From NCBI RefSeq assembly GCF_000378505.1, contig NZ_KB899996.1:62001-126000 (forward strand): a DNA stretch of 64,000 nucleotides, in the 5' to 3' direction. Position 1 is the stretch's first letter. The number at the start of each line of letters is the position of its first letter. This document shows, piece after piece, positions 29,618 to 47,960 of the stretch. The DNA comes from Modicisalibacter luteus DSM 23508. Its GTDB lineage: Bacteria; Pseudomonadota; Gammaproteobacteria; Pseudomonadales; Halomonadaceae. Under the pieces are notes generated by a model, which had not been told where the DNA came from, did not search any database, and saw nothing but the letters and a program-made list of their open reading frames with translations. The position numbers and the translations under genes are program-made.

Positions 29618-31399
29618 TCAGCGGTCCACGTCGGCCATGACGAAATCGATACTACCCAGATGTGCGATCAGATCCGGCACGAAGCCACCGCGCATCACCG
29701 CCGGAATCTGCTGCAGATGCGGAAAACTCGGCGTACGGATACGCGTGCGATAGCTCATGGTGTTGCCGTCACTGGTCAAGTAATAGCTATTGATGCCCTT
29801 GGTGGCTTCAATCATCTGCTGAGACTCGTTGGGCTTGAGCACCGGCCCCCACGATACCTGCAGGAAATGGGTGATCAGCGTCTCGATGTGCTGCAACATC
29901 TTGTCGCGCGGTGGCGGCGTGGTCAGTGGATGATCGGCCTTGTAGTCACCGGCCGGCATGTGGTCGATGCACTGCTGGATGATGCGCAGACTCTGGCGCA
30001 TCTCCTCGATACGCACCTGGCCACGATCGAAGGCATCGCCGTTGCCCCCCAGCGGCACCTCGAAGTCGAAATTCTCGTAGCCCGAGTAGGGGCGCTTCTT
30101 GCGCAGGTCGTAATTGCACCCGGTGGCGCGCAGGTTCGGGCCAGTGACGCCCCATTCCAGCGCCTCCTGCGTGGAGTAGGCAGCCACATTACGGGTACGC
30201 TCACGGACGATGGAGTTCTCCATCATTGCCCGTTCGTATTCATGCAACCGCTTGGGCATCCAGTCGACGAAGCCCTGCATCAGGCGATCCCACCCCTTGG
30301 GCAGGTCCTGAGCCACACCGCCGATACGAAACCACGCCGGGTGCATGCGAAAGCCGGTGATCGCCTCGATCACTTCATAGGATTTCTGACGGTCGGAGAA
30401 GCTGTAGAACACCGGCGACATGGCACCCAGATCCTGCAGGTAGGTGCCGAGGAACAGCAGGTGACTGCTGATGCGGAACAGCTCGGCCATCATTACGCGG
30501 ATGGTGCGGGCGCGGTCGGTGACGGTGATCCCGGCAAGCTTCTCTACCGCCAGGATGTAAGGCAGGTTGTTCATCACCCCGCCGGTGTAGTCGACGCGGT
30601 CGGTGTAAGGAATGTAGCTGTGCCAGGACTGACGTTCGCCCATCTTCTCGGCACCGCGATGGTGATAACCGATGTCGGGTACGCAGTCGACGATCTCCTC
30701 GCCCTCGAGTTGCAGCACGATGCGGAACGCCCCATGGGCAGAGGGATGATTGGGCCCGAGATTGAGGAACATGAATTCACTGTTCTCGTTCCCGCGGCGC
30801 ATGCCCCAGGCCTCGGGGTCGAACTTGAGCGCCGCCTGCTCCTTGTCCTGCCCCTCCACAGTCAGCGTATAAGGGTCGAACTCGGTGGCTCGCGCAGAGT
30901 GGTCCTTGCGCAGCGGATGGCCGATCCAGGTCGGCGGCATCAGAATCCGGGTGAGGTGCGGGTGGCCATGGAAGACCACTCCGAACATGTCCCATACCTC
31001 ACGTTCGTACCAATTGGCATTGGGATAAAGCGAGACGATGCTGGGCATTTCCAGGTCGGACTCGGCAAGGGCCACCTTGAGCATGATGTCGCGATTCCGC
31101 GAAACCGACAGCAACTGGTAGAACACCGTAAAATCCGAATCCGGCAGCCCCTGCCGGTTCCCGCGCAGACGTTCGTCGTTGGCGGAGAGGTCGAACAGCA
31201 TCTCGAACGGCTCGGGCATGCCGCGCAGGAAGGAGAGCATCTCGACCAGCGCCTCGCGAGCGACCCACAACACCGGCATGCCGATCAGGGTGGCCTGCTC
31301 GACGAAGGCGTGCTCGCCGAAGCGCTGCATCAGGGCAACGACGACCGGATCGGCCTGCGCTTCGTTCGCGGTCGTGTCATGAGGGGTGGCGACGTTCAT
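29618..31399 (-). CDS. nuoC: NADH-quinone oxidoreductase fused subunit C/D
   Basis: 593 residues, a natural fusion of NuoC (about residues 1-180) and NuoD (about 210-593), as in E. coli and many gammaproteobacteria. The NuoC part has the family motif [28 protein letters not shown]. The NuoD part has [14 protein letters not shown], with the His that contacts quinone, and [14 protein letters not shown]. The C-terminus [11 protein letters not shown] is typical. It links the hydrophilic arm to the quinone site. The protein is commonly written NuoCD. Confidence 0.95.
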
Positions 31400-31436: not shown

Positions 31437-32117
31437 TTAGATGCTGTCTGGTGTACGCAACTCGGTGGTCTGGATGCGCTGGGCCCGCGACTTCTCGCGC
31501 TGGGAAGGCATCTCGGCACGATAGACGCCTTGATCGCCAACCACCCACGACAGCGGACGCCGTTCCTCCTGGATGGAGTCCTGCAACAGCTGTAACCCCT
31601 GCAGGAACGCCTCGGGGCGCGGTGGGCAGCCCGGCACATAGACATCCACCGGCAGGAACTTGTCGACCCCCTGAACTACGGAATAGATGTCGTACATGCC
31701 GCCTGAGTTGGCGCACGAGCCCATCGAGATCACCCACTTGGGCTCGAGCATCTGGTCATAAAGCTGCTGTATGACCGGCGCCATCTTGATGAAGCAGGTC
31801 CCGGCGATAACCATGAAATCCGCCTGGCGAGGTGAAGCGCGAATGACTTCGGAGCCGAAACGGGCAATGTCATGGGGTGCGGTAAACGCCGTGGTCATCT
31901 CCACGTAGCAGCACGACAGGCCGAAGTTGTAAGGCCACAAGGAGTTCTTGCGCCCCCAGTTGACCGCCGAGTGGAGCACCTCCTCCAGCTTGCCGGTGAA
32001 CACACTGCGATGGACCTGCTGGTCGAGCGGGTCTTCTACACGCTGGCGTTCGCCCAGTGGATAGCGGGCGTTGTCCGCCGCTATCACGTCATCGGCACGC
32101 GTCAGGGTATACGCCAT
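31437..32117 (-). CDS. nuoB: NADH-quinone oxidoreductase subunit B (cluster N2)
   Basis: 226 residues. It binds cluster N2, the immediate electron donor to quinone. The cluster cysteines are seen in [13 protein letters not shown] (tandem Cys), [14 protein letters not shown] and [16 protein letters not shown]- and C-termini are typical of the gammaproteobacterial form. It lies 37 nt upstream of nuoCD and 68 nt after nuoA. Confidence 0.96.
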
Positions 32118-32185: not shown

Positions 32186-32599
32186 TCAGGCCTCGCCATC
32201 CTGACGCTTGCGGCGCGCCGTCGGCGCCCAGTCCAGCGCCCCGACCCGGCTGTCATAGACCAGCCCGGCCAGCAGGATAGCGATGAATACCGCCGCCCCC
32301 CAGAACCCGGCCCAGCCGACCTCACGTACGGAGACGGCCCAGGCGAACAGGAATACGGCCTCGATATCGAAGATCACGAAGAGCATCGCGACCAGGTAGA
32401 ACTTGATGGAAAAGCGCTGACGCGCGCTACCGGTACCAATAATGCCGGATTCGAACGGCAAGGACTTGCTGCGGCCACGGCTGCGTCCGCCCAACAAGCT
32501 GGCGGCACCGATCATGAAGGCACACAGACCGAACACGGCTACCACGAAGAGCCCCACGGCCCAGTACTGGGCGATCAGCGCTGCAGCATTCTGCTCCAT
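32186..32599 (-). CDS. nuoA: NADH-quinone oxidoreductase subunit A
   Basis: 137 residues from the ATG at 32599 ([16 protein letters not shown]), with GGGAGA just upstream; an in-frame ATG at 32614 would add five residues. Three transmembrane helices are visible, and the conserved loop [37 protein letters not shown] is intact, which contacts NuoD and NuoH near the quinone entrance. First gene of the nuoA-N operon, divergent from thiD. Confidence 0.95.
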
Positions 32600-32696
32600 A
32601 CTTCTCCCCATCAAGCCACGCCCGATCGGCCATGGCTGGCCGTCTCACGGCATAGGCAGTTTCTCTGAACCGCCCTGTTTTCGTTCATCTGGCTTA

Positions 32697-46025: not shown

Positions 46026-46940
46026 ATGACCGGCGTCGAGAGCGCCCTTGGGCCACTTTTTCTGCTGATTTTGCTGGGCGCCGTTCTGGGCGGTTGCCGC
46101 TTTCCCGGTGACGGATTCTGGCCGCCACTCGAGCGCCTGATCTACTTCGTGCTGTTTCCCGCCATGCTGGTCTCTACCTTGGCCACGGCCAACGTCGCCG
46201 AGGTGCCGGTCGGCCGCGTCGCCCTGGCTTTGCTGGGCAGCATGGTGTTGTTCGCCGTACTGCTCTGGCGATGGCGCGTCCGACTCGGCCTCGAGGCGGC
46301 GGCCTTTACCTCGGTCTTCCAAGGGGCGCTGCGATTCAACACGTATGTCGGTGTGGCCGGGGCCGCGGCGCTGCATGGCAAGGCAGGCGCCACGGTCGCC
46401 GCCGTGGCGGTGGCGTTGATGGTCCCGGTGGTCAATGTACTCTGCGTGGCGAGCTTCGTGGCTGCCGGCACGCTGGGCTCATCGAGTCTCGGCAAAAGCC
46501 TGGCCGCCCTGGTACGCAACCCGCTGATCCTGGCCTGTGTGGTGGGGATTACGCTCAATCTCACCGATGTCGGCCTGCCCGGCTGGAGTGGTGAGGCCAT
46601 CGCCCTGCTGGGTCGCGCGGCGCTACCCATGGGGCTAGTCGCGGTGGGCGTTGCCCTGCGCCCCCGCGCCCTGCTACGTCTCGACCGCGGAGTCTGGGCC
46701 GCCAACCTGATCAAGCTGGCGCTGATGCCGGCGCTGGTACTGGGGCTGTCCGTGCTTCTGGGGCTCGATAGCGTGAGCCGGGATGTGGTCCTGCTCTTTG
46801 CTGCCCTGCCAACCGCAACGTCGGCCTACATCCTGGCGCGTCAGTTGGGTGGCGACGCCGAACTCATGGCCGCCCTGATCACTGGGCAGACGCTGCTGGC
46901 CATGCTGACCTTGCCAGCCTGGCTGGCAATGGCAGGGTAA
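46026..46940 (+). CDS. AEC (auxin efflux carrier) family transporter
   Basis: 304 residues from the ATG at 46026 (AAGGAG 7 nt upstream), with about ten transmembrane helices in two inverted five-helix halves. Conserved segments: FFLILLGAVLGG-like start, LIYFVLFPAMLVSTLA, FQGALRFNTYVGVAGAAALHGKAG, LVRNPLILACVVGITLN and PTATSAYILARQLGGDAELMAALITGQTLLA. Members move organic acids or amino acids; the substrate here is unknown. Confidence 0.92.
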   Translation: MTGVESALGPLFLLILLGAVLGGCRFPGDGFWPPLERLIYFVLFPAMLVSTLATANVAEVPVGRVALALLGSMVLFAVLLWRWRVRLGLEAAAFTSVFQGALRFNTYVGVAGAAALHGKAGATVAAVAVALMVPVVNVLCVASFVAAGTLGSSSLGKSLAALVRNPLILACVVGITLNLTDVGLPGWSGEAIALLGRAALPMGLVAVGVALRPRALLRLDRGVWAANLIKLALMPALVLGLSVLLGLDSVSRDVVLLFAALPTATSAYILARQLGGDAELMAALITGQTLLAMLTLPAWLAMAG

Positions 46941-46944
46941 GAAA

Positions 46945-46963
46945 GCGAATAAAAAATATTCGC
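46945..46963 (+). terminator. Weak hairpin after the AEC carrier gene
   Basis: A 7-bp AT-rich inverted repeat (GCGAATA / TATTCGC, loop AAAAA) lies 4 nt after the AEC stop, followed by GTTT. It may act as a weak terminator that insulates the downstream small-RNA promoter. Confidence 0.4.
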
Positions 46964-46970
46964 GTTTACC

Positions 46971-46998
46971 TTGACGAAATAAATGAGAATGATTTACT
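46971..46998 (+). promoter_or_regulatory. Sigma70-like promoter containing a Fur-box-like sequence
   Basis: TTGACG (46971-46976, 5 of 6 to the -35 consensus) and TTTACT (46993-46998, 4 of 6 to the -10) are 16 nt apart. Between and over them, the 19-mer at 46979-46997 matches the classical Fur consensus at 12 of 19 positions by my count, including the core TGAGAATGATT. A repressor bound here would block RNA polymerase. Predicted start near 47005. Confidence 0.6.
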
Positions 46999-47004
46999 TT
47001 GAAG

Positions 47005-47130
47005 TTGTGGCGCTCGCCAGGCGCTACTTTCCATCGCAGAGGATGCTGAAAGCGCGGCGTTCCCTGCCATGGTTATCTCCTCATCAAGCTAGTCACGGTC
47101 TTGCCGCTCCTTTTGGAGCGGCTTTCTTTT
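47005..47130 (+). ncRNA. Candidate Fur-repressed RyhB-like small RNA
   Basis: About 126 nt from the predicted start to the end of the terminator T tract. Architecture: a 5' hairpin (47007-47013 with 47021-47027, one G-U pair); an unstructured centre with CTGAAAGCGCGGCGTT (47046-47061), close to the E. coli RyhB core CTGAAAGCACGACATT (13 of 16, all differences A to G); a C/U-rich stretch CCATGGTTATCTCCTC (47067-47082) that is antisense to a Shine-Dalgarno plus ATG; and a terminator hairpin (47103-47122) followed by TTTCTTTT, as expected for an Hfq-binding RNA. RyhB represses iron-using proteins under iron limitation; that role is inferred. No convincing ORF on this strand. Confidence 0.6.
47103..47130 (+). 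terminator. Rho-independent terminator of the candidate small RNA
   Basis: A perfect 8-bp stem GCCGCTCC / GGAGCGGC with loop TTTT, followed by TTTCTTTT. It stands 163 nt after the AEC stop, with a promoter between, so it ends an independent transcript. Confidence 0.85.
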
Positions 47131-47166
47131 GTTCAGTTTGTCAGACCTACGACGTCACGTTTGCAT

Positions 47167-47195
47167 AAAAAAGAGCCGCTCCAAGGGAGCGGCTC
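47167..47195 (-). terminator. Rho-independent terminator of trmB
   Basis: On the minus strand a perfect 10-bp stem (GAGCCGCTCC / GGAGCGGCTC, 3-nt loop) is followed by TTTTTT. It lies 25 nt after the trmB stop. Its stem shares the GCCGCTCC/GGAGCGGC core with the small-RNA terminator on the opposite strand. Confidence 0.92.
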
Positions 47196-47219
47196 CTGAG
47201 TGGTCTGCTAGCGTGGCGA

Positions 47220-47960
47220 TCACTCGCAACGTCGATAAATCAGATCCCATACGCCATGTCCCAACCGGGCCCCTCGATGCTCGAACTTGGTCAGCGGTCG
47301 AAAGTCAGGCCGCGGCACATAGGGTCCATCGGTCGAGGTATTACTGAAACCGGGCGCCTCGGCCATAATTTCGGCCATGACCTCGGCATAGGCTTCCCAG
47401 TCGGTGGCCATGTGCAGCGTACCACCAGGCTTGAGGCGGCTGCGTACCAGTTCCACGAAGGCCGGCTGCACGATCCGCCGCTTGTGGTGCTTCTTCTTCG
47501 GCCAGGGATCGGGAAAGAACAACTGCAGCCCGTCGAGGCTTGCCTCGGGCAGGCAACGCGTCAGCACCTCCAGGGCATCATCACGGTAGACGCGAAGGTT
47601 GGTCAGCCCGCACTTGTCGGCCTCATCGAGTAACTTGCCCACGCCGGGCGCATGCACTTCGATACCGATGAAGTCGGTGTCCGGATGGGCCGCTGCCTGC
47701 TCAATCAGCGAGGCGCCCATGCCGAAACCTATCTCCACCACTCGCGGAGCCTGGCGGCCGAACAGCGCGTCGAGATCCTGCAACCCATCCTCGACATGCA
47801 GGCCCAGGCGTGGCCAGACTTCCTCCAGGCCACGCTGCTGGGCGGCGGTCATGCGTCCGGCGCGCAGCACATAGCTCTTGATGCCACGCCGGGGACGCTC
47901 GGACACAGTGGGCTGGGCATCCTGCTCTGGGTCGTCGGCGTTCAAACGGTCATTGTTCAT
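47220..47960 (-). CDS. trmB: tRNA (guanine-N7-)-methyltransferase
   Basis: 246 residues. It makes m7G46 in tRNA from SAM. Motifs: [17 protein letters not shown] (SAM loop), [15 protein letters not shown], the [21 protein letters not shown] catalytic segment and [16 protein letters not shown]. The N-terminal ~50 residues are acidic and variable with [14 protein letters not shown] before the domain, as usual. It follows thiG by 27 nt and may share its transcript; it has a dedicated terminator. Confidence 0.96.

Follow-up and report, generated by a model that had tools for sequence, protein, structure and literature searches.

A conserved PrrF homologue downstream of an AEC carrier gene in Modicisalibacter luteus, unseen at present Rfam cut-offs

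What is encoded in the gap between the AEC carrier gene and trmB of Modicisalibacter luteus? In the 64-kb stretch of DNA analysed here (the window), this intergenic gap is 279 nt long (46941–47219), as had been described, with the AEC gene ending at 46940 and trmB occupying 47220–47960 on the minus strand. The original prediction had placed in it a RyhB homologue behind a Fur-box promoter, and had set PrrF aside as an unrelated gammaproteobacterial RNA. Our analysis supports an sRNA of about 125 nt with a Fur-type promoter, three hairpins and its own terminator but not its identity as RyhB, and PrrF is the family that matches; what lies in the gap looks like a genuine gene for a small regulatory RNA, a distant relative of PrrF and not of RyhB. 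PrrF homology, conservation, covariation, a predicted open core and complementarity to nuoA were all obtained by computation.

The RyhB assignment turned on a 16-mer, CTGAAAGCGCGGCGTT (47046–47061), which is indeed present and has three mismatches to the RyhB 16-mer used for comparison, but the likeness is of a kind that arises by chance: such matches occurred at a mean of 0.27 per window, and at least one was found in 22 of 100 shuffled windows. The points that speak for an origin from the RyhB of enterobacteria, with 47046–47061 as the core, are the 13 of 16 matching letters and a similar layout. However, the covariance check that had been proposed, a search with the RyhB model RF00057, gave no match at E≤10 at the locus, and 0 of 14 genomes of the genus scored over the cut-off. 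Weak RF00057 matches at E≤10 were seen in 10 of these 14 genomes (best E 0.08), none of them at this locus, and in the control set one genome, presumably E. coli (listed first), passed the cut-off. The 16-mer had been thought to lie in an unpaired centre; it is predicted to be mostly paired in the second hairpin. It also falls in the most variable, indel-rich part of the RNA and is not conserved: the 17 copies found in the genus agree with it at 13 of 16 positions in two cases, at 11 of 16 in one and at 8–9 of 16 in the remaining 14. With neither a family-model match nor a conserved, accessible core, the RyhB reading is refuted by the non-conservation of the 16-mer, and we reject it, leaving it almost no probability.

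When Rfam was searched over 46900–47260 at E≤10, six matches were obtained and PrrF (RF00444) was the best. It aligned with 46971–47130 over model positions 1–150 of 150 (55.9 bits, E 5.6e-9), indicating end-to-end similarity to PrrF in sequence and structure. The score does not reach the curated cut-off of 90 bits and is not a formal Rfam hit; a scan of the whole 64-kb window at gathering scores returned no match because the PrrF gathering score is 90. The predicted sRNA is thus a PrrF homologue, though by Rfam's rule not a member of RF00444. Without the promoter the model still gave 37.5 bits (E 2.1e-5), and the core–terminator part alone (47065–47135) gave 41.8 bits (E 1.3e-6). The M. luteus genome contained one significant match to the sRNA stretch, the next having E 0.67, consistent with a single copy. 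Rfam matches of microRNA type around 47109–47188 were dismissed, as they reflect two facing terminators.

The relationship was also examined in the reverse direction with a model, R1, built only from Halomonadaceae copies. Its alignment (A3) contained 42 sequences, namely the M. luteus copy and 41 of 73 distinct named copies, which were picked by hand with near-duplicates left out; the identical core in all of them results from their selection. From this alignment RNAalifold retained hairpin 1 alone (8 pairs), and R1 is therefore mainly a sequence profile. At 47005–47130 it gave 99.2 bits (E 3.5e-30), a value to be read with the M. luteus sequence itself in the model; over 444 kb, comprising the 64-kb window and 19 stretches from relatives, its next match had E 0.033 and lay at the facing trmB terminator. 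Outside Halomonadaceae, RF00444 matched 48 genomes, and the best-scoring 28 were taken as loci (L051–L078). None of these was in the R1 training set and 17 were over the Rfam cut-off, and R1 found a PrrF-type RNA in all 28, with a best E per locus of 7e-16 to 3e-10.

The predicted prrF-type sRNA runs from 47005 to 47130 on the plus strand (about 125 nt; the start is predicted), as judged from the full-length RF00444 match, the R1 match and the fold of 47003–47130, which is more stable than those of shuffled sequences (z −3.36). Its predicted fold consists of two 5′ hairpins and an intrinsic terminator. Hairpin 1 (47007–47027, plus strand) was borne out at the position originally given. Over 42 sequences, 98.3% of 294 cells were paired (shuffled, 86.5), six of seven pairs had changes on both sides and the covariation score was 0.568 against 0.308, with 0 of 500 shuffles as high; these compensatory changes had been named beforehand as a check. 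In our reading of the folds, hairpin 1 belonged to the best whole-RNA structure in 38 of the 42. Hairpin 2 (47031–47072, plus strand) has a lineage-specific enlarged top, which holds the RyhB-like 16-mer; taken alone, the segment folded as a hairpin in 42/42 sequences, its length varying between copies. The terminator (47103–47130, plus strand) also agrees with the original prediction, with a stem at 47103–47122 followed by TTTCTTTT, and the terminal stem was present in 42/42 whole-RNA folds. Beyond it, at 47171–47197, a strong terminator on the minus strand closes trmB; it is a mirror image of that of the sRNA, with GAGCGGC stems in both.

Between hairpin 2 and the terminator, and 3′ of the RyhB-like 16-mer, is a conserved open stretch (47073–47102) that had been overlooked. 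It contains the PrrF core and predicted seed, TCTCCTCATCAAGCTAGTCACGGT (47076–47099, plus strand), which is assigned as single-stranded on the basis of conservation, the RF00444 match and unpaired probability. The core stands out as the conserved block among 42 family copies that RF00444 had detected without selection by core, comprising the 17 genus copies and 25 further best-scoring family loci. Variation within it was limited to one base absent in L018 and L019 and an A for G in L036, L037 and L044. The mean unpaired probability of the core was 0.83 in the M. luteus RNA and fell below 0.5 in 7 of 42 aligned sequences, so that a conserved core is predicted to be open in M. luteus itself. The exact 24-mer was found in 70 stretches of named genomes; we take the names to be those of Halomonadaceae, except for one record that carries no closer label than Gammaproteobacteria bacterium MFB021.

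Upstream of the RNA, the predicted sigma-70 promoter occupies 46971–46998 on the plus strand, with TTGACG at −35 (46971–46976), TTTACT at −10 (46993–46998) and a 16-nt spacer, exactly where the original prediction had drawn it. Most relatives retain TTGAC or TTGC at −35. A simple promoter scan detected none in the region, and the promoter is thus weak by itself. The predicted Fur box ATAAATGAGAATGATTTAC (46979–46997, plus strand) overlaps this promoter and matches a Fur consensus at 12 of 19 positions. That count had been reported correctly but is not above chance, as 242 of 2000 shuffles that preserved the dinucleotides of these 63 bases reached it too; the match is unremarkable alone because the promoter is so AT-rich. 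The relatives provided a clearer signal. Between −35 and −10, AATGnnAA was found in 67 of 76 named copies as compared with 1.6% when that DNA was shuffled (one of the 77 named copies was dropped, its locus ending there), and the motif was found in 73 of the 76 when boxes upstream of −35 were also counted. By eye, eight of the nine other copies (from Halotalea, Carnimonas, Kushneria sinocarnis and Cobetia) have a Fur-like box upstream of −35, and in the ninth, L133, the box keeps its usual position in altered form. The best match to the 19-base consensus averaged 11.68 over the 76 copies and 9.68 after shuffling, and was at least 13 in 17 copies. We give weight to the M. luteus box because relatives keep it; a predicted Fur box is present at the sRNA's own promoter, as judged through conservation only. 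Immediately upstream of −35 there is a hairpin, GCGAATA-AAAAA-TATTCGC (46945–46969), and at this position many relatives read ATTCTCGTTT or ATTCTCATTT, each a near or exact inverted copy of the Fur box half AAATGAGAAT. Fur may thus bind a site longer than the 19-base box.

The position of the promoter also bears on whether the region encodes a short protein, for which a 61-codon ORF at 46983–47168 would be the candidate. This ORF is open here, and the frame stays open across the tested span in 5 of 17 genus copies, M. luteus included. Its ATG, however, lies inside the Fur box and ahead of where the transcript probably starts, in the other 12 copies the tested frame runs into a stop after 6 to 45 codons, and hairpin 1 covaries as an RNA. 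We reject the small-protein reading because of these stops and give it scarcely any credence.

The neighbouring genes raise a further alternative, in which the locus is nothing more than the AEC gene's 3′ UTR or terminator and makes no separate RNA. The AEC gene was indeed found upstream on the same strand in 17/17 genus loci (14 genomes), with trmB downstream and facing in 10/17 (within flanks of only 1.5 kb). Among 77 named copies, AEC was within 2 kb upstream in 52 and trmB within 2 kb downstream in 32. This leaves 25 of the 77 with no AEC found within 2 kb upstream, although some loci end early there, and the sRNA has its own conserved promoter with a Fur box; where copies occur in tandem, each has its own box by eye. 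An AEC 3′ UTR is accordingly very improbable, and we retain a separate PrrF-type RNA gene. In the 1.5-kb flanks of the 28 other-family PrrF loci, neither AEC nor trmB was found.

How widely is this RNA distributed? In the genus, RF00444 matched 14/14 genomes with 17 copies, three genomes having two in tandem; at E≤0.01 in the same search, 1 of 14 controls, Lactococcus lactis, had an RF00444 match below the cut-off. The tandem pairs (G001:C19:25423-25790, G007:C19:110481-110848 and G012:C16:167931-168312) are spaced 215–221 bp apart, each sRNA with its own Fur-like box by eye. In the family, RF00444 matched 139 of 201 genomes and 23 of 24 genera, with 0/201 over the cut-off and no control matched. 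R1 matched 200 of 201 in a search with strict filters and no control genomes, a figure to be read with same-family copies in A3 and with the weakest matches extending to E 5e-5. The sole R1 miss was G031, the lone genome of its genus (g19), a case of loss or of a diverged copy. A distant blastn search for plasmid-borne relatives gave none at E≤0.01.

Beyond the family, the order sample gave RF00444 matches in 59 of 390 genomes and 31 of 142 genera at E≤0.001, where about 0.4 genomes would be expected by chance. The 17 genomes over the cut-off all belonged to one family, f21, which we infer to be Pseudomonadaceae. Besides f1 and f21, nine families had matches, making 11 families in total at E≤0.001, the weakest of which depend on one match each, close to that limit. 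Of the 369 genomes sampled across the class, 3 matched, all of them within the order Pseudomonadales. That search used strict filters and overlooked a member of the family, G023, which R1 detects, and it therefore shows absence outside the order only weakly. One locus in another family of the order (L076, G449:C3:1547549-1548839) carries five PrrF-like copies in a 1.3-kb array.

RF00444 often failed in two genera, g11 and g20. We read 12 of their copies, chosen from the listed stronger R1 matches, and by eye all 12 had a Fur-like box, hairpins and a terminator, and in all 12 the seed half was altered to TTCTCCCTCTCATTGCTAGTCACGGTC or a close variant. In copies L253–L264 from these genera, the hairpin 1 loop contains GATGAG, a possible pairing partner for the CTCATT in the core; the loop perhaps masks the core. 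The distribution raises the idea that PrrF did not arise in Pseudomonas but was ancestral, as an iron-sparing RNA, to much of the Pseudomonadales (GTDB), that Halomonadaceae kept it almost without exception, that it multiplied in tandem several times over (up to five copies), and that its seed half was rewritten in two large Halomonadaceae genera. We are evenly divided on whether this history is correct; if it is, target evolution of one sRNA could be traced across a whole order.

The core suggested where the RNA may act. Its best pairing partner in the window was the Shine-Dalgarno region of nuoA (32602–32628, minus strand; start codon 32599–32597), the first gene of the complex I operon (ORF 32186–32599, minus strand). 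It is followed by a nuoB-like ORF (31437–32117) and a nuoCD-like ORF (29618–31399), all three names being assigned from the sequence. The core–nuoA duplex has 24 pairs and −37.0 kcal/mol, with a net gain of −15.6 kcal/mol after folding of both RNAs. After the sRNA's own antisense, this site was the best of 12,804 60-base stretches from both strands of the window (mean −14.2, sd 3.5), and the nuoA start region gave z −5.55 against shuffles. In the M. luteus genome, the wobble complement of the core without mismatch occurred only at the prrF antisense and at 32603–32618 on the minus strand. Over 14 genomes the wobble pattern occurred at 28 places outside prrF versus 19 for a reversed control, so that most pattern matches are due to chance; nuoA was among them in 2 of the 14. 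One pattern match, TGGCTTGATGAGGAAA, common to G006, G009 and G010, was considered as a target and rejected on inspection of G006 (L220), where it falls within the last part of a channel-like coding frame rather than at a start. Another, 16 kb from prrF in G010, was rejected as nuoA, whose start there reads otherwise.

Start regions were then compared with 300 shuffles each at p<0.05, nuoA being found in 17 of the 19 stretches from relatives as well as in the window. The nuoA start region passed in 5 of 18 (the window, G007, G008, G001 and G022), where the start in G001 is off by one codon and that in G022 is uncertain, being extrapolated over eight residues; two other nuoA starts were extrapolated by one or two residues. 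The pairing site is thus conserved only in part. The sdhD start region passed in 6 of 14 cases, with p 0.017 in M. luteus, and that of sdhC in 1 of 14, with starts chosen mechanically and some of them doubtful. A classic target, Fe-type sodB, passed in 1 of 14 and not in M. luteus (p 0.435); these were 14 of 22 superoxide dismutase loci, the iron type being judged by a motif at the protein start. These tests replaced a duplex scan of the sod and sdhC loci that was too noisy. An apparent pairing at the sdhC–sdhD junction, obtained in 14/14 genomes with a slightly longer query, was dropped as it leaned on coding sequence. We think with modest confidence that nuoA, the best-supported candidate, is a target in M. 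luteus; sdhD is perhaps also a target. The nuoA pairing is a strong prediction for M. luteus and does not imply an extension to the whole family.

The patchy targets allow a variant of our explanation, compatible with it, in which the RNA is PrrF by descent and its job has shifted, classic targets such as sodB being lost and complex I and others gained lineage by lineage. The core is kept while target sites are patchy, nuoA passed only in the five start regions above (more weakly in G008 than in the others), and the seed half is changed in 12/12 inspected copies of two large genera. Against this, duplex energies taken without annotation, expression or CopraRNA-type statistics cannot prove loss, and real pairing may involve shorter seeds. 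We regard such a shift as possible but doubtful.

We are highly confident that the locus is a single-copy prrF-type gene for an iron-response sRNA. The M. luteus genome has one Hfq gene and two Fur-family genes, and we infer transcription, Fur binding, Hfq dependence and target repression for this RNA. In the mechanism we propose, Fe-Fur would sit on the promoter-overlapping box in iron-replete cells and keep prrF off; when iron is short, Fur would leave and the ~125-nt RNA would be made. The RNA would present hairpin 1, hairpin 2, the open 24-nt core and a terminator whose U-rich tail could bind Hfq, and the core would block mRNAs of iron-rich proteins by pairing where their translation starts, sparing iron.

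In kind the RNA is ordinary: a conserved PrrF homologue, unseen at present cut-offs, with a range wider than its name suggests. The literature matches listed, which cover subscription journals little, included no published description of a native PrrF in Halomonadaceae. P. aeruginosa PrrF1 scaffolds have already been used in the engineering of Halomonas bluephagenesis, according to two reports (PMC12164125, PMC13101641), and RF00444 is named as a benchmark family in another (PMC5913331). A native PrrF relative could interfere with such scaffolds or replace them, and halophiles used as industrial chassis gain a likely native iron-response RNA that annotation at the Rfam cut-off would overlook. 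With the range of PrrF extended from one family to 11 families at E≤0.001, its age and target turnover become testable.

Several known RNAs resemble this one. ArrF of Azotobacter vinelandii, which we take to be the Azotobacter PrrF, reportedly regulates sodB and feSII; we liken it by description only. BrrF, HrrF and NrrF are functional analogues, likewise by description, and BrrF, in its authors' account, is not similar in sequence to the Fur-regulated sRNAs already known. With RyhB of E. coli there is no sequence or model match; the M. luteus RNA would probably work in an analogous way, by Fur-repressed iron sparing, and one study reports that RyhB represses nuo in E. coli (PMC7377471). In a review (PMC4211561), PrrF is described as lacking sequence homology to RyhB and is treated as an RNA of Pseudomonas species, and read-through of the P. 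aeruginosa tandem pair is said to yield a third RNA, PrrH. P. aeruginosa PrrF is Fur-repressed, with a regulon that includes SdhABCD, AcnB and NuoABCEFGHI in a further report (PMC8557868). PrrF1 and PrrF2 of P. aeruginosa have the same Fur-box promoter, two 5′ hairpins, an open core (UCUCCUCAUCA-GCUA-UCACGGU) and a terminator. PrrF forms tandem pairs in some species, whereas the M. luteus copy is single; its core reads AAGCUAG where the Rfam PrrF consensus reads AGGCUAA, and the hairpin sequences differ. Unlike the 28 other-family loci in their 1.5-kb flanks, the RNA described here adjoins AEC and often trmB.
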